This document shows positions 372 through 7,887 of a stretch of DNA of 64,000 bases, piece by piece (the stretch's first letter is position 1; each line of letters begins with the position of its first letter). The stretch is from Desulfatibacillum sp. (GTDB taxonomy: Bacteria > Desulfobacterota > Desulfobacteria > Desulfobacterales > Desulfatibacillaceae): positions 1 to 64,000 of the forward strand of contig JAEINP010000006.1 of NCBI GenBank assembly GCA_016342355.1. Reading direction: 5' to 3'. The translations under genes were made by a program, and so were the position numbers. A model generated the notes under the pieces. The model made no database searches and was not told where the DNA came from. It was given only the letters and a program-made list of their open reading frames with translations.

Positions 372-1283
372 TTAGAACCAGGTTTCAGGCACATTAATAC
401 GATCGCCCGGTTCCAACTCGGGATCGATGAGCTTTCCTTCCCGGACCGCCACAAGATTTACTTTAATGACTCTTTGCTCCCCATTGTTCACCCGGATAAT
501 GGCTGCCCGGTGGGGTGCTGCAAATTTGGAAAACCCTCCGGCCATGACGCAGGCATTAAGAGCTGTGAGGCCGGGCTGATAATCGTACACGCCGGGAGAT
601 TCCACTTGGCCGTCCACATAGATTTTGCTGGCTGCCAAATTGAGGGCCTTTTCCAGGGGTATATACACCAAGTCCCCGGGTTCCAGGGGAACGTCATTGG
701 CAAGATTCCCCCGGTCCAGAAGTTGGCGCAGGTCCACCTTGTCCGGGTCCCGGGTTTTTACAAGGGTGGATATGTCTGTACTGGCTTCCACTTCCGTGGC
801 AGCGCTTCTCAGGACATAGGCCACATTGCCGCGTTCGGGCAAGGCGCCTCCTGCCTTGGCTATAAGTTCCATCAGGCTTAAACGGGAAGTGGACTCATAG
901 CTTCCCGGATTTCTCACAGCCCCGGAAATATAATAGTGAATACTGTGGTATTCGGTCACTACGATATGCACTTGGGGATCTACATAATAATCTCTTTCCA
1001 ACGGAATGCGGATGGATTTTTCCAACTGGGGTATGGTCAGACCCATGGCCGTGACCTGTCCCACCATGGGCACGGAAACTACTCCCTGCACCGAAACGGT
1101 CAAATCCACACTCAACTGTTGTTCTCCACCTGCATAAACCTTCAAACTGATGACATCGGTGGCGCCAAGTCGGTATTCATCCCTCTGCCCGGGGGCCAAA
1201 TCAGGATAGGCCAAACAAAGAAATACGCATACCGAAAGGCAAATCGCCACGGAAACGCGAGATAGCATATTTTTTATCTTCAC
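372..1283 (-). CDS. Wza-like polysaccharide export protein (Poly_export + SLBB domains)
   Basis: A 303-residue exported protein. An N-terminal hydrophobic signal (residues about 8-27) is followed by a Poly_export domain (about 35-110, starting YRLGATDVISLKV) and two SLBB-type modules (about 115-190, ISGAVRNPGSY; about 215-290, VDGQVESPGVY). This is the architecture of Wza-family outer-membrane capsule/EPS exporters, which form the periplasm-to-surface channel. It is shorter than E. coli Wza (about 379 residues), and no C-terminal amphipathic barrel helix or obvious lipobox is seen, so it may rely on the neighbouring beta-barrel protein for the outer-membrane pore. It lies between the barrel gene and the Wzz gene in one transcriptional direction. 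Confidence 0.88.
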   Translation of the reverse strand: MKIKNMLSRVSVAICLSVCVFLCLAYPDLAPGQRDEYRLGATDVISLKVYAGGEQQLSVDLTVSVQGVVSVPMVGQVTAMGLTIPQLEKSIRIPLERDYYVDPQVHIVVTEYHSIHYYISGAVRNPGSYESTSRLSLMELIAKAGGALPERGNVAYVLRSAATEVEASTDISTLVKTRDPDKVDLRQLLDRGNLANDVPLEPGDLVYIPLEKALNLAASKIYVDGQVESPGVYDYQPGLTALNACVMAGGFSKFAAPHRAAIIRVNNGEQRVIKVNLVAVREGKLIDPELEPGDRINVPETWF

Positions 1284-1367: not shown

Positions 1368-2591
1368 CTAATTTCCACTGCGCCCGAATTCCAGGGCAGT
1401 GTCTATCCGGGCCATAACGTAGGTATTGTCGTAGCTAAAGCCCACAACGTTGGAGTCACGGTTTTTGTACCCGCCTTCCAAGGAAATAACCACAGGATCA
1501 ATGATCCGGTAGCCCAGGCGGGCTCCGAAATCATAGGTATCGTCCTCACGCAATTCCCGGACGCCAGCCGAATTGTAGCCATATGTGCTTTCGTAGTCGC
1601 TCAAACGGTAGGAAGCCCACAGGTCCAGGTAGATTTTTTCCACAAACTTGTGCCCGCCTTCCAGGGAAATTTCCGGCCCCTTGTAATATTCGTCGCCAGA
1701 CCCCGCATCGTTGAAGTTACTGGAAAACGCAGCCCTGATATAGCTGCGGGGGTCTCCGTCGTCAGGCGGATTCTGTCCTTCCACGGCAAACCGGTAGGTA
1801 AGGGTATCGGCGTCTTCTAATCCCACAGCGTCGAACTCGCGGTTCTGGTAGCCTGCCCCGGCTTCCACCTGAAAATAATGGAATTGCTGGCGAAAGATCA
1901 ATTTTGCCTGCTGGGAGGTGTAATCAGAGGTATACTTGTTATAATCCCTGTTCCAAACTTGATATTCCACGTCAAAGGAGGCCTTGGAGTTGAGATTGTA
2001 TACCACATCAAAAATACCGCGATTTTCCTGGTTGTCTTCGCTCCCGCTATCATCATAGTCGGTGAGAGTGTTCCGATAGGCAGCCTGGGCGGAAAAACGT
2101 TCGCCAAAACGGTACAAAACCCGGGGAGAAAACGTGTTGATGAAGTATTTGTCCCGCCCTGTTTCGTTGCTGTAGGCATCCAACTTGTCGGGGTCCCTGG
2201 TCAGGTAGTAGCTTTCGTCCAGGCCCAGTTCAATACGGTCAGTGGGCTGGGTCATGGCGCTTAGCCTGAGGGAATGGCCCACATAATCCCCTTCGCTGGC
2301 CTTTACTTGGCCGGGCTGAAGGTCGTCCGCATCATCATAAAAAGTGGGGCTTGCCGTATAATCCAGGCTCACATTACTTTTTGGGGTAGATAAAAGCACA
2401 CTGATTCCGGGCTCCACCAAATAAGAATGTACTCCGGCAGAGTTATTTTCTGAGTTATAAAAATTGCTGTCGTATCGATAACCTATGCCTAATTTAGGGG
2501 TTATCAAAAGAGCAGGGCCGCCCCAGGCAGTTGCTGCAAATCCAAAGGCAACCAACGCACAAAGGCTCAATATTCTACGAATTTTTCCCAT
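1368..2591 (-). CDS. outer-membrane beta-barrel protein of the exopolysaccharide locus
   Basis: A 407-residue protein with a signal peptide (residues 1-25, cleavage near AWG-GPA). The remainder alternates polar and aromatic residues in many short predicted strands (for example YRYDSNFYN, DFGARLGYRI, NTYVMARIDTALEF), as expected of a large beta-barrel. The start has a good ribosome binding site (AAGGAG, about 9 bases upstream). Similar barrels occur beside wza-type genes in synthase- and Wzx/Wzy-like EPS loci, where they are proposed to help secretion; that role is inferred from position only. No enzymatic motif is seen. It is 84 bases upstream of the Wza-like gene on the same strand. Confidence 0.75.
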   Translation of the reverse strand: MGKIRRILSLCALVAFGFAATAWGGPALLITPKLGIGYRYDSNFYNSENNSAGVHSYLVEPGISVLLSTPKSNVSLDYTASPTFYDDADDLQPGQVKASEGDYVGHSLRLSAMTQPTDRIELGLDESYYLTRDPDKLDAYSNETGRDKYFINTFSPRVLYRFGERFSAQAAYRNTLTDYDDSGSEDNQENRGIFDVVYNLNSKASFDVEYQVWNRDYNKYTSDYTSQQAKLIFRQQFHYFQVEAGAGYQNREFDAVGLEDADTLTYRFAVEGQNPPDDGDPRSYIRAAFSSNFNDAGSGDEYYKGPEISLEGGHKFVEKIYLDLWASYRLSDYESTYGYNSAGVRELREDDTYDFGARLGYRIIDPVVISLEGGYKNRDSNVVGFSYDNTYVMARIDTALEFGRSGN

Positions 2592-2665: not shown

Positions 2666-3283
2666 CTAAGGGTTAACAGGGGACGCTGGGGAATCGCCGC
2701 CTGTTCCGCCGCCACCGCCCAAGCCGCCGCCAGGTCCGATAGTTCCCGGTCTGCCCAACGAGGTGAAGCCGCCTCCTCCAGGAGCCTGATAGGCTTCCAT
2801 GGTAGCGCCGCCGGGCAAGGTTGCCCCTGCAGCCAGCAAAGTCTGCATTGGCGCATTATTGGCAGTCACAGCAGCCAGAGCCTCTGCCTTAAGGCTATCC
2901 GCCAGTCCCACCGCCACCGGATCGGTGCTGGCGGCAGCAATTGCCTGAGCAGCATTCGTAATATTTTGCAGGCAAGATTGAACCTGGACATAGGCGTCCA
3001 TCAAAGCCTGGGCGTCTTCGCCCGTAGCGCCTTCCACCTGGCCTGCCAACAAGGCGGCAGCATCATTGGCTTTTTGCAAGGCTTCCTGCAATTTGGCAGG
3101 ATCTGCAGAAGCCTCGGCCTCCGCAATCAATGCGTTGCTTTCCGTTACCATCAAAATTGCCTCCGCCACATTGTCGCTAACAGCTGCCATGGCATTGGCA
3201 AATGGGAACAGACATGCTACCACTATTACAAAACTCATTAAAAAATAAAATCTGGCAGTGCTTTTCCTGGATATTCCGATCAT
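2666..3283 (-). CDS. secreted Ala-rich protein with Gly-rich C-terminus
   Basis: A 205-residue protein. I place the start at 3283 (MIGISRKS) because AGGAGGTG lies 5 bases upstream; an in-frame ATG further upstream lacks such a site. A signal peptide (hydrophobic MSFVIVVACLFPFANAMA) precedes an Ala-rich, probably helical domain (residues about 35-150, many AxxA repeats), ending in a low-complexity Gly/Pro tail (roughly the last 40 residues). No family was recognised. It lies between the phosphatase gene and the beta-barrel gene, so it could be a structural or matrix protein of the same export locus, but that is inference. Confidence 0.7.
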   Translation of the reverse strand: MIGISRKSTARFYFLMSFVIVVACLFPFANAMAAVSDNVAEAILMVTESNALIAEAEASADPAKLQEALQKANDAAALLAGQVEGATGEDAQALMDAYVQVQSCLQNITNAAQAIAAASTDPVAVGLADSLKAEALAAVTANNAPMQTLLAAGATLPGGATMEAYQAPGGGGFTSLGRPGTIGPGGGLGGGGGTGGDSPASPVNP

Positions 3284-3466: not shown

Positions 3467-4183
3467 CTAGTTACTGGCAATAACCATTATGGGATTAATG
3501 ACGAGGAGACGATGGGCTTCCTCCCGCCCTACAAGGGCTACTATTATTTTGGAAACGTGCTTCAAACCGGGTTTCCTGCCTCGAATGTCATGGGCGTCCG
3601 AGGCCACCAAGTGCACCAAGCCTGCTTCCAGAAGGGTTTTACAGCAGCGTTTGGGGTTCCGTCCCAGGCTTCCATCCAGGCTTTGAGCGGTAATTTGGCA
3701 AAGGGCTCCCGCATGTATGAAATCCTGCATAATGGAAGGATTTTGCTGAATACCATGAGATCTTTCCCCATGAGCAATAATCGGCGTCAAATTCATGGCA
3801 TTCAATCGATTGATAAAGGCGATAACCCCCTGAGGCACAAAGGGATGGGGGAGTTCCAGAAGCACATACCGACCTTGGTCATTCAGAGTGGTGATTTCCC
3901 CGGATTCAATTTCTCCCATCAATTCGGGACACAAATGGGCTTCACACCCCGGGAGAACTCCCAGAGCAATGTTTTCCTGTTCCAAAGCCTTATTAAAAAC
4001 AACACAGGCCTCCAGAATAGCGCTGCGGGAATTGTGGTACACGCCGTTTAATGTGTGGGGGGTGGCCACCATGGTGGAAACGCCCCTATCCACCGCCATG
4101 CGGGCCATGGCCAGGGCCATGGTCAGGGTAGACGGACCGTCGTCCAGTCCGGGAAGAATGTGAGAGTGGATATCAATCATCAA
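3467..4183 (-). CDS. CpsB/YwqE-type tyrosine-protein phosphatase (PHP fold)
   Basis: A 238-residue polymerase-and-histidinol-phosphatase-type metalloenzyme. Metal-binding signatures are in order: DIHSHILPGLDDGP (residues about 4-17), ATPH (about 39-42), IAHGER (about 137-142) and SDAHD (about 195-199). This pattern is characteristic of Mn-dependent CpsB/YwqE phosphatases, which dephosphorylate BY-kinases and thereby control capsule or EPS polymerisation. Position in an EPS locus beside a Wzz-type gene supports that role. Its start overlaps the end of the upstream zinc-peptidase-like gene by 11 bases, implying translational coupling. The usual IAHPER is IAHGER here. The first two codons are both ATG, so the exact start is uncertain by one residue. 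Confidence 0.88.
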   Translation of the reverse strand: MMIDIHSHILPGLDDGPSTLTMALAMARMAVDRGVSTMVATPHTLNGVYHNSRSAILEACVVFNKALEQENIALGVLPGCEAHLCPELMGEIESGEITTLNDQGRYVLLELPHPFVPQGVIAFINRLNAMNLTPIIAHGERSHGIQQNPSIMQDFIHAGALCQITAQSLDGSLGRNPKRCCKTLLEAGLVHLVASDAHDIRGRKPGLKHVSKIIVALVGREEAHRLLVINPIMVIASN

Positions 4184-4754
4184 AAAGGTGTGCTTCCACG
4201 TACATGGACCAGACTTCGGCGCTGACTCGGGGAGGGCGAATCACCAAAAAATGGTCGGAGATAGCATGGCCCATTTCGTGGGCCAGTATGCCTTCGTGAA
4301 TATCTTGGCTATTTATATAGATGGTGTTGGCCTCATACAGGTACCAGGACCGGACATTGCAGCGGGCTTTGTAAATACTTTCATATTCCCGGGTCAAATA
4401 TTTTTTATCAGGAAGCACACGGATGCGCACCGCCGCCATTTTAGGGCGCATGTCCAGGATATCCTGGACCCGTTCGTACATGGCGTCTACTTTGTTTTTC
4501 AGGCTGCTTTCCAGTCCGGAAGACCCTTGGGACTCAATAATTCTTTTTGCGCTCCACTTGCCGGGGCCGAAGTTCAGGGAATCGTGAAAGTGTTTCAGGT
4601 CATCCTGGGAAAGGTATTGAATTTTTGTAAACTGGGTCTCCAGAGTCTTCCAGGCATCGCTTTCCACTGCCCAACAGGAATGGGTCAGGCATACGACCAG
4701 TATACTCATCCACATAAGGACCACAATTTTCCGAAAGGGTATTTTCCACCCCAT
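4173..4754 (-). CDS. exported zinc-metallopeptidase-like protein (HEMGH)
   Basis: A 193-residue protein with an N-terminal hydrophobic segment (residues about 9-29, probably a signal peptide ending SCWA). Near the C-terminus is LAHEMGHAISDHF, a textbook HExxH zinc site (H159, E160, H163), followed by a conserved helix ending VWSMYVEAHLFDD that could supply a third ligand. The small size and the preceding region (about residues 85-150) resemble gluzincin 'MA-like' peptidases, but I could not assign a named family. The plus-strand gene at 6110-6712 is a clear paralogue (shared VQxxLDM, SQDIxEGI, LVxRPxR) with a destroyed motif. Overlap with the CpsB-type gene suggests co-expression. Confidence 0.75.
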   Translation of the reverse strand: MGWKIPFRKIVVLMWMSILVVCLTHSCWAVESDAWKTLETQFTKIQYLSQDDLKHFHDSLNFGPGKWSAKRIIESQGSSGLESSLKNKVDAMYERVQDILDMRPKMAAVRIRVLPDKKYLTREYESIYKARCNVRSWYLYEANTIYINSQDIHEGILAHEMGHAISDHFLVIRPPRVSAEVWSMYVEAHLFDD

Positions 4755-4772
4755 ATGCCTTGGTTCCCGACA

Positions 4773-5336
4773 TTATAACTTGAAATGCGTGTCTATCTTC
4801 CTTTTGACATCCTCCAGTTTTCCGGCCCATTCCCCGCCTTTATCCTCATTTTCCAGGATTTGGGATAGCTGCTCCACCGAATCGCGAATGTCGGAAACCT
4901 TTGCATGCAATTGCCCTGCCATGGAATTAATGGATTGGGCGAGGACTGTTATTTGATCCTTGCTCCGTAGCTTCACTACCTTGGTGAGATCCCCCTCGGC
5001 TATATCCTCCAATTCCTTATTGAGACGAAAAAGAGGCCCGGCGATCTTGTGGGAAGCAAAAAGGGTAAGCACTATGACCGCCACGGTTACCAAGCCCAAA
5101 ATTATAAAATTGGTCATGAGAACCGAGGGCATGATGGCCTGGGAAGTGCATTTGATGATGAGCCTGGAATGGGAGAAATCCGAAGTGAGGCTGTTGCAAC
5201 TGAAATATAGGGTCAAAAGGGTGGACGCAACTGTTCCAAAAAAGACCACTAGGCAAAACTTAAAAATAAATGCCCCTTGAAAGCCCTTACTGACAAAATA
5301 CTGTCTTCGGCGGGACGGGGTAGGTTTGGCTGGCAT
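4773..5336 (-). CDS. HAMP-domain membrane protein without an output domain
   Basis: A 187-residue protein. The start is placed at 5336 (MPAKPTPSRRR) because AAGGAG lies just upstream; an ATG 33 bases earlier lacks one. Two membrane helices (residues about 20-44 and 72-95) flank a short periplasmic loop. The second helix runs into a HAMP module (about 96-150: KIAGPLFRLNKELEDIAEGD, then VLAQSINSMAGQL) and a coiled tail. Sensor kinases and chemoreceptors carry a signalling domain after HAMP; this one stops, so it has an input/transducer half only. It may signal to another protein in trans, such as the membrane-tethered receivers at 6738-7854, but that is speculation. It is 18 bases upstream of the HEMGH gene. 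Confidence 0.78.
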   Translation of the reverse strand: MPAKPTPSRRRQYFVSKGFQGAFIFKFCLVVFFGTVASTLLTLYFSCNSLTSDFSHSRLIIKCTSQAIMPSVLMTNFIILGLVTVAVIVLTLFASHKIAGPLFRLNKELEDIAEGDLTKVVKLRSKDQITVLAQSINSMAGQLHAKVSDIRDSVEQLSQILENEDKGGEWAGKLEDVKRKIDTHFKL

Positions 5337-5416
5337 TTCCCACTCCTTCTTATTGGGGAAGAGTTCCATGGCAGGGCGTTTTCCATGCTATTCACGGATC
5401 ATGCGCCTTCCGTGGC

Positions 5417-6013
5417 TCATGGTCTCATTTGCCCAGGTTGCTCGTCTTGTTGCCCGAGAAGCAAATCTTCGTCAATCTTCACTTCACATCGATTTTCCAG
5501 TTCCCGGATCCACTGGGCAAGGAGGCGGGTTTTCTTTTCCTCCATAGCCCGATCACTCAACTCCTTTTGCAGAGTGTCAAAGGCTGGAATATCAGGGTCC
5601 TCTTCCTTGAGTTGCCTGTAGAGATTCAGGACTTCCTCCTGGGTCACCTGAGTGGTTTCCCCTATCTCCCGGGCTTTCATTTCCAGGAGATCCCGAATCA
5701 ACGCGGACTCCCAGAATCGCTGGACAGACTTGACAAATTTCTCCCTGGAATCAAGTTTTAGCCTTTTGGCCTCCTGGATAAGCACCTGCCGGGTAACCAT
5801 ATCTTCCAAAAACTGCATTTGAGCTTCCCGGGTAAGTTTGTAATCCTCTTCCAGCCGCATCTCCTGAGCCAACAAATCCTGGAATTCATTCTGGTACAAG
5901 CAATAGTCATTGACCCGGACCACAACCGGGCCCGCCTCTTGCATATCTTCCGAAGAGCAGGCGATGACCAGGAGGCAAGCCGCAGCCATAAAGGTTGTCA
6001 GTACATTTTTCAT
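5417..6013 (-). CDS. SurA/PpiC-like lipoprotein lacking the rotamase domain
   Basis: A 198-residue lipoprotein. The signal peptide ends in a lipobox (LVIAC, Cys19). The mature part matches the N-terminal chaperone module of SurA/PrsA/EpsD proteins: a beta segment VVVRVNDYCLYQNEFQDLL followed by long amphipathic helices (FLEDMVTRQVLIQEAKRL; VTQEEVLNLYRQLKEE). The parvulin peptidyl-prolyl isomerase domain usually inserted after this is absent, and the C-terminus ends in a short helical coda. A periplasmic chaperone role for exported EPS-locus proteins is inferred from the fold and position. It is encoded 80 bases upstream of the HAMP-only gene on the same strand. Confidence 0.7.
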   Translation of the reverse strand: MKNVLTTFMAAACLLVIACSSEDMQEAGPVVVRVNDYCLYQNEFQDLLAQEMRLEEDYKLTREAQMQFLEDMVTRQVLIQEAKRLKLDSREKFVKSVQRFWESALIRDLLEMKAREIGETTQVTQEEVLNLYRQLKEEDPDIPAFDTLQKELSDRAMEEKKTRLLAQWIRELENRCEVKIDEDLLLGQQDEQPGQMRP

Positions 6014-6109
6014 TGATAACCCGCTCCTTTTTGCCTAAAGCTATTGCCATAGTAGCCCGATACCTTGGACAGGAAGCTCTTATGTCGAAAATTGCTATAA
6101 AGAGGATTC

Positions 6110-6712
6110 GTGAAAAACATGTTAAACGCAAAAATCAAGAAATCTTCTCCATTGTTTTGGGTGCTCTTTGGACTTATGACCATACTTGGTACAGCACAGG
6201 CCACACCACTCGGTATTTGGCATACATTGGAAACGGAGCACTTAGTAGTTTGCTATCAGAACCCCGAGGACTTGAAGGCGCTGGGGACCCGTATTAAATA
6301 CGATATAGGGAGTTGGAGCCTGTTCAGGCAATCAGGTTCCCATGTTCATCCTGACCAAATATCCCAAAAGATGGACAGCCTGTTCATCCGGGTCCAAAAT
6401 CTTTTGGACATGAAAAAGACCTACCCAAAAATCACTCTGTTCCTGTTCTCCAACACAAACCAATTTAATGCGGCCTATGCCCAAGCCCTTAATGAACGAA
6501 CTCCCGATAGCGCCAAAGCCCGGTATATCCACCAGGAACGGGCCATATATGCTGTCTCCCAAGACATTGACGAAGGAATCATGGCAAGGGAAATGGCCCA
6601 TGCCATTACCAACCAATACCTTGTAGTCCGACCGACACGCAAAGCCGCGGATATTTTAGCCAGCTATGTGGGCCAGCATCTTCTTGATTCTTCCGCCCCC
6701 CGGGTCTATTAA
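6110..6712 (+). CDS. paralogue of the zinc-peptidase-like protein with a degenerate site (REMAH)
   Basis: A 200-residue exported protein on the opposite strand to its neighbours. I use the GTG at 6110 (AGAGG upstream); an ATG three codons later is an alternative. After a hydrophobic signal (about residues 13-31) it aligns with the 4173-4754 product through the whole C-terminal half: VQNLLDM, SQDIDEGIM, LVVRPTRKA, YVGQHLLD. The zinc motif HEMGH of the paralogue is REMAH here (R160, H164), so the first ligand is lost and catalysis by the usual mechanism is not expected. It may be a pseudo-enzyme partner or regulator. It is divergent from the lipoprotein gene, with about 96 bases between them. 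Confidence 0.72.
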   Translation: MKNMLNAKIKKSSPLFWVLFGLMTILGTAQATPLGIWHTLETEHLVVCYQNPEDLKALGTRIKYDIGSWSLFRQSGSHVHPDQISQKMDSLFIRVQNLLDMKKTYPKITLFLFSNTNQFNAAYAQALNERTPDSAKARYIHQERAIYAVSQDIDEGIMAREMAHAITNQYLVVRPTRKAADILASYVGQHLLDSSAPRVY

Positions 6713-7371: not shown

Positions 7372-7854
7372 TCAGGCTATTGCATGGGCAAGCCCCATGC
7401 CAAGACCTATCCAGATCGGGGTAGAGAATGCAATTCCCCATGTCATTCGTTTCAAACGTCTGGTCTTTGCCGCCAGGCAATGCTCGGCAAAAGCTCTTTC
7501 CAGGGTAATTTCCAGCCTGGACGACTCGCATTGCCTGGGCAGATAATCGTAAGCCCCTTTTTGGATGCACCGGATGGCAGACTCCCGGGAATCTTGGTCG
7601 CAGGTTACCAGCATGGTGGGCCGTTTCCTGCCGCGTCCCAGGCTATTCACCCCCTGTGGGCCGCCCCAGTCAGGTAATTCCGCACAGGCGATGACCACGG
7701 AATAGTCTTCTTTGCCCATGGCCAGCCTGGCTTCGTCACAGGAATGGGCCACATCGGTGCGGTACCCAAGTTGGCCAAGCCTGTCCAATAGGGAATCGGA
7801 GTGCGAGCTATCCTTCTCCATCAACAAAATTTTTCCTGCGCCTTGTTCATTCAT
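7372..7854 (-). CDS. membrane-tethered pseudo-receiver (paralogue of the REC-TM protein)
   Basis: A 160-residue protein; the start is at 7854 (MNEQGAG), where GAGGAAGGA precedes the ATG, rather than the ATG seven codons earlier. It aligns end to end with the 6738-7241 product, but the phosphorylation set is gone: the acid pocket DD is EK(D), the acceptor Asp is Cys57 (VVIACAELP), the conserved Thr is Cys and the Lys is Arg (LPRQC). The C-terminal hydrophobic segment is retained with the same signature (WGIAFSTPIWIGLG). It is therefore a pseudo-receiver that cannot be phosphorylated conventionally, and could pair with or titrate its partner at the membrane. It is 33 bases downstream of the WbpM-type gene. 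Confidence 0.78.
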   Translation of the reverse strand: MNEQGAGKILLMEKDSSHSDSLLDRLGQLGYRTDVAHSCDEARLAMGKEDYSVVIACAELPDWGGPQGVNSLGRGRKRPTMLVTCDQDSRESAIRCIQKGAYDYLPRQCESSRLEITLERAFAEHCLAAKTRRLKRMTWGIAFSTPIWIGLGMGLAHAIA

Positions 7855-7887
7855 TTTTCCTTCCTCTTGGAACATTATCTTAAAAGC

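Follow-up and report, generated by a model that had tools for sequence, protein, structure and literature searches.

The window analysed here, 64,000 nucleotides at the start of contig JAEINP010000006.1 from a sulfate-reducing Desulfatibacillum species (assembly GCA_016342355.1; 5.26 Mb), carries two related genes, here named pepH and pepR, that lie on opposite strands around two further genes. pepH encodes a predicted exported protein resembling a zinc peptidase, and pepR a paralogue whose active site has been altered. An earlier reading of the sequence alone, the first-pass annotation, had described them as an enzyme and a pseudo-enzyme within an exopolysaccharide locus. Both reading frames lie at the coordinates and on the strands that it gave, and the residues on which it turned are as it described: pepH has the motif HEMGH (H159, E160, H163; H159 codon at 4278-4280), whereas pepR has REMAH, with R160 encoded by agg at 6587-6589 (both positions by codon count) and with E161 and H164 also present. 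The core motifs SQDIxEGI and LVxRPxR are found in both proteins. Alignment of the two products covers 187 residues at 29% identity (101 bits, E 6e-32); the similarity is real, and it reaches further than the C-terminal halves first described. No third copy was found in the host genome at a credible score, the best other match having an E value of 0.738.

Desulfatibacillum alkenivorans DSM 16219 (contig NZ_FQZU01000030.1) is the sole other genome placed in the genus of the window, and it possesses both genes, divergent as in the window and around the same two genes. The pepR orthologue of D. alkenivorans also reads REMAH (loci L015 and L026), at about 52-54% identity between the two species, and this recurrence excludes chance or sequencing error as the source of the altered motif.

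The rarity of the substitution is seen in a family alignment of 103 copies, for which 100 fetched loci and the window served as the 101 sources. The first histidine is present in 101 of the 103 copies, and both exceptions are the two pepR proteins, with arginine. When these two and one defective copy, L117, are set aside, H159, E160 and H163 (pepH numbering) are each present in 100/100 copies, and E180, the candidate third ligand, in 98 of 99. Both pepR proteins show the loss of ligand residues by which a pseudoenzyme is recognised (H159 to Arg, E180 to Asp); P175 and F56 are also lost, and further changes common to both are W/F137 to Arg, N/S148 to Val and D/E187 to Gly. Among 18 columns conserved at a level of at least 85%, the pepR pair retain 14, pepH 16 and L117 11; of the four columns changed in pepR, two hold candidate zinc ligands and another, P175, sits between those two. 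HExxH, the mark of the Peptidase_MA (gluzincin) superfamily, is found in pepH and lacking in pepR; it is present in all family copies covering the region except the two pepR proteins and L117, and it is intact in all 16 motif-reaching copies among 19 further weak or partial matches. The expectation that a His/Arg pair would recur beside wza/wzz genes was not borne out, as the Arg form is limited to two Desulfatibacillum genomes among the 103 copies; recurrent pairing is rejected for the copies inspected, remote matches included.

Two other copies are unusual at the same site. L117 (836-1534, minus strand, genome G101) appears to be a second, independent inactive member of the family, with HVLAY in place of the motif and Lys at 180, so that E160, H163 and E180 are all lost; it lies on a short contig and is without the upstream SurA-like and HAMP genes described below. 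L178 (6981-7538) has HEMAH intact, yet carries Asp at the third-ligand position.

pepR is retained by purifying selection comparable to that on pepH. Between the two species, the NG86 ratio of nonsynonymous to synonymous substitution (dN/dS) falls at 0.19-0.21 in pepR, close to the 0.195 of pepH, with neighbouring genes at 0.06-0.25 (0.244 for the receiver gene RR2, 0.169 for the HAMP gene and 0.147 for the SurA_N-like gene), all of these ratios being approximate. It might be supposed that pepR is simply a duplicate in the course of being lost: it evolves faster than pepH, and L117, with its 11 columns left, demonstrates that loss does happen in this family. However, the pepR frame is open in both species although about 48% of its residues differ between them, both zinc-ligand positions have changed identically in the two, and a dN/dS of about 0.2, like that of pepH, makes decay unlikely, to the point that it is the least probable of the explanations weighed here. 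The earlier claim that the inactive copy is maintained rather than decaying is upheld by this ratio and by the common zinc-site change. When the four Desulfatibacillum proteins are forced into one clade, the tree scores above the free quick tree and is not rejected (p-AU 0.744), a result that fits a duplication within the Desulfatibacillum lineage without proving it.

Neither protein matches any Pfam or NCBIfam family at cut-off. The best Pfam score of pepH is 13.1 bits, to M48, short of the 20.3-bit cut-off for membership, and pepR has no Pfam match. Searches of 56 family members against Pfam returned few, scattered and weak matches to known peptidase families (the best to M48, 0.0077), and the family profile found no credible match among PDB sequences (best E 0.77); the description of an unnamed exported family thus stands. 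In a profile comparison with Peptidase_MA_2 (PF13485), represented by eight sequences from related genomes, the catalytic half aligns over 80 columns (82% probability, E 1.1e-5), with HExxH placed on HE..H and E180 on the Glu of the NEG motif. The latter supports E180 as the likely third zinc ligand of pepH, the ligand roles of HExxH and a downstream Glu being established for gluzincins. M78 was rejected as the closest branch, its match being weaker than that of Peptidase_MA_2 (58% versus 82%).

Another reading is that pepR is still an enzyme, with an altered-metal or metal-free site formed by R160, E161, H164 and, at the equivalent of E180, Asp. The equivalents of E160 and H163 are kept in both pepR proteins, and L178 combines Asp at 180 with an intact HExxH; but H159 is otherwise never replaced in the 103 copies and Arg is not known to serve as a zinc ligand within this peptidase clan, making a surviving activity of this kind very unlikely.

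The recurrent element in the wider family is not the active/inactive pair but an operon-like set of three genes: a SurA_N-like lipoprotein, a HAMP membrane protein and the peptidase. In 81 of the 103 copies they follow one another in this order on the same strand. The HAMP frames beside those 81 copies have a median stop-to-stop length of 209 codons (range 121-284), too short for a large output domain. In the 53 full-length loci, a SurA-like match is present in 43 and a HAMP match in 47, compared with 0/40 and 1/40 control stretches, respectively. Members of the family are present in 10 of 59 relatives, in 78 of 389 genomes of an order sample, in 81 of 389 of a class sample (largely the same ones) and in 27 of 395 of a phylum sample; none was found in the seven searched genomes of other genera within the host's own family. 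The genes of the window are collected in Table 1, for which export signals, the lipobox and the membrane stretches were assigned by visual inspection, with the exception of the receiver tails, where a hydropathy check was used.

Table 1. Genes at and around the pepH-pepR locus (positions in the window).
Gene or product	Position	Strand	Observations
Wza-type polysaccharide export protein	372..1283	minus	PF02563 3.7e-16
Outer-membrane beta-barrel, BBP2/EpsL type	1368..2591	minus	PF10082 7.8e-12; TIGR03014 1.2e-10, below cut-off
Exported divergent protein (slot protein)	2666..3283	minus	C-terminus ..DSPASPVNP; slot between CpsB and outer-membrane protein
CpsB/CapC-type phosphatase	3467..4183	minus	PF19567 4.7e-52; overlaps pepH 3' end
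pepH, predicted exported zinc-peptidase-like protein	4173..4754	minus	193 aa; HEMGH (H159, E160, H163), candidate third ligand E180
Short HAMP membrane protein	4773..5369	minus	PF00672 1.3e-9; two hydrophobic stretches (by eye), without output domain
SurA_N-like protein	5417..6013	minus	PF13623 9.3e-6, below cut-off; lipobox-like LVIAC (by eye)
pepR, putative inactive paralogue	6110..6712	plus	200 aa; REMAH (R160), Asp at E180 equivalent; start codon GTG with GAGG upstream (by eye)
RR1, receiver with C-terminal hydrophobic helix	6738..7241	minus	PF00072 3.1e-26; phospho-acceptor Asp present
RR2, RR1 paralogue	7372..7875	minus	Cys at phospho-acceptor position; other receiver residues changed

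The link to polysaccharide genes proposed in the first-pass annotation is also recovered beyond this genome. A marker (Wza, CpsB, barrel or Wzy-TPR) lies near the peptidase in 25 of the 53 full-length loci versus 0/40 control stretches (Fisher p 3.4e-8), and in 48 of 100 loci when short ones are included. About half of the loci are thus without a marker, meaning that the link is real but not general. Among 88 next-door proteins, O-antigen ligase was found 11 times, CpsB seven times and the tyrosine-kinase-type chain-length G-rich domain three times. The coupling to a CpsB-type phosphatase is likewise sound, as the CpsB frame begins within the end of pepH and the frames overlap likewise in D. 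alkenivorans. Taken as a whole, the earlier interpretation holds for an unnamed exported family, a shared loss of the active site, purifying selection and a polysaccharide link, and fails for a recurrent His/Arg pairing with wza/wzz.

Several observations concern the neighbouring genes in their own right. RR1 and RR2 are tandem receivers, each with a C-terminal hydrophobic helix, and have a counterpart in D. alkenivorans (L084 5884-7031). RR1 keeps the acidic pair, the phospho-acceptor Asp and the Lys, and RR2 has lost them in both species, with Cys for Asp; judged by these residues, the locus holds a second active/degenerate pair, of predicted tail-anchored receivers. Ten similar tail-anchored receivers were found in eight other genomes, and Asp is kept in all but one (L301, with Glu). 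A FlaA1-type gene of 621 aa in the window is represented in the fetched D. alkenivorans locus only by a 157-codon open stretch (L084 5397-5867).

The slot protein, which lies upstream of the BBP2-type barrel, ends in ASPVNP. A C-terminal [AG]SP plus one residue closes this protein in 9 of 18 barrel loci (L084, L088, L089, L091, L116, L118, L121, L123 and L141) and none of 2242 control frames; in a separate barrel-based search (L344-L373), the upstream frame has ASP within its last seven residues at 19 of 30 loci. This end is possibly a C-terminal tag. Many of the genomes that have it do not encode the peptidase, which ties the putative tag to the barrel instead; on the same ground, a role of the slot protein as dedicated client of the peptidase is not supported.

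The order of lipoprotein, HAMP protein and peptidase suggests that a holder, a relay and a protease work together on a single periplasmic client. The SurA_N-like lipoprotein would be chaperone-like and hold or present the client, the HAMP membrane protein would sense or relay, and the product of pepH, third gene of the conserved unit, would be an exported, gluzincin-like metallopeptidase that cuts the client in the periplasm, with HExxH and E180 as its putative zinc site. pepR would have been born by duplication of the peptidase gene in the Desulfatibacillum lineage, before the split of the two sampled species, and would have lost its zinc site with the first His changed to Arg and the third ligand from Glu to Asp, most of the conserved core being retained. 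As a guess, the Arg-Asp pair that replaces two ligands could form a salt bridge and hold the pepR fold without metal. The pepR product would most likely occupy the same client, or the same HAMP and lipoprotein partners, as pepH. We therefore favour, at a probability of about 0.5, a pepR that is a non-catalytic partner of the three-gene unit, limiting or directing cleavage by pepH during exopolysaccharide assembly. That pepR steers rather than cuts is probable; its partnership with pepH we infer from adjacency and conservation, and the sign of its effect on pepH is likewise presumptive.

Alternatively, pepR may be a binding protein for a client, glycan or peptide, built on the old peptidase fold and with a function of its own that does not involve regulating pepH. 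Its place on the opposite strand and outside the three-gene unit would suit such a role, as would its longer stem in the tree and the changes seen only in the two pepR proteins beyond the zinc ligands, such as W/F137 to Arg. Direct adjacency to the peptidase unit is nevertheless kept in both species, and 14 of the 18 family-conserved core columns are retained; an independent function of this kind is possible, if unlikely.

Several points weigh against the favoured reading of pepR as a partner. Two genomes of a single genus, Desulfatibacillum, are the only known source of the active/inactive pair; pepR is transcribed divergently from the three-gene unit and stands outside it, and no promoter-like site was found between the two. 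The longer branches of pepR in the quick tree (stem 1.55 versus 0.91, tips 1.15 versus 0.77) indicate a constraint somewhat looser than in pepH. The dN/dS ratios are approximate because dS is near saturation (1.9-2.0 for pepR, and 1.0-2.6 across the compared genes). Finally, AlphaFold models of pepH and pepR, made from 4-row alignments, have low mean pLDDT values of 49.7 and 42.3, respectively.

Among known systems, pepH resembles Peptidase_MA_2 and other gluzincin-type enzymes in having, besides HExxH, a conserved Glu that lies 17 residues past the second His. It differs in that no counterpart was found for its N-terminal half and in falling below every Pfam cut-off, and pepR differs further in being without two of the three ligand candidates. 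The locus also resembles the EpsD/EpsE/EpsL exosortase loci (TIGR02925, TIGR03028, TIGR03014) in its Wza-type exporter, EpsL-type barrel and EpsD-like neighbour, but its matches to these three models all lie below the curated cut-offs. For example, the NCBIfam model nearest to the SurA_N-like protein is EpsD TIGR02925 (1.2e-7), at 31.6 bits against a cut-off of 108.9, which is too low for assignment. An exosortase/PEP-CTERM type of exopolysaccharide locus was rejected, since exosortase PF09721 had no match at E 0.001 in the host genome.

We know of few bacterial pseudo-metallopeptidases. FtsH is a membrane AAA protease, and thus differs from pepR in fold and compartment. With that difference, the nearest pseudoprotease to pepR with a first-His-to-Arg change is FtsHi4, in which HExxH has become REAAV, a non-catalytic protein that has been kept and that is related to an active enzyme (PMC11266112). 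The abstract of that review treats mostly eukaryotic inactive metallopeptidases (PMC11266112). The nearest documented parallel for pepH is the JspA/LppA pair of Sinorhizobium meliloti, an extracytoplasmic HExxH metalloprotease and a small lipoprotein that together influence exopolysaccharide production; JspA, a lipoprotein of 497 residues, combines M48 and LysM domains, unlike pepH, which fails the M48 cut-off, and the passages on JspA and LppA mention neither a HAMP protein nor an inactive twin (PMC10659215). Within the portions of the literature covered, no paper was found on this peptidase family or on the SurA_N-HAMP-peptidase unit.

On a broader and quite unlikely view, the SurA_N-like lipoprotein, the HAMP protein and the exported peptidase would make up a system, not described before, that couples proteolysis and signalling in the envelope of Desulfobacterota. 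Each arm of the locus would have acquired its own brake in Desulfatibacillum, the peptidase a neighbour without the zinc site and the tail-anchored receiver a neighbour without the Asp, with the balance of active and inactive forms setting polysaccharide output. More immediately, pepR offers a small, clean case of a putative pseudo-metallopeptidase adjoining its active sister, with two natural species for comparison. More widely, the analysis reveals a small peptidase family, as yet unnamed, that is accompanied across Desulfobacterota by a fixed pair of partner genes. It provides three defined proteins that can be tested for a part in the assembly or control of surface polysaccharide in sulfate-reducing bacteria.

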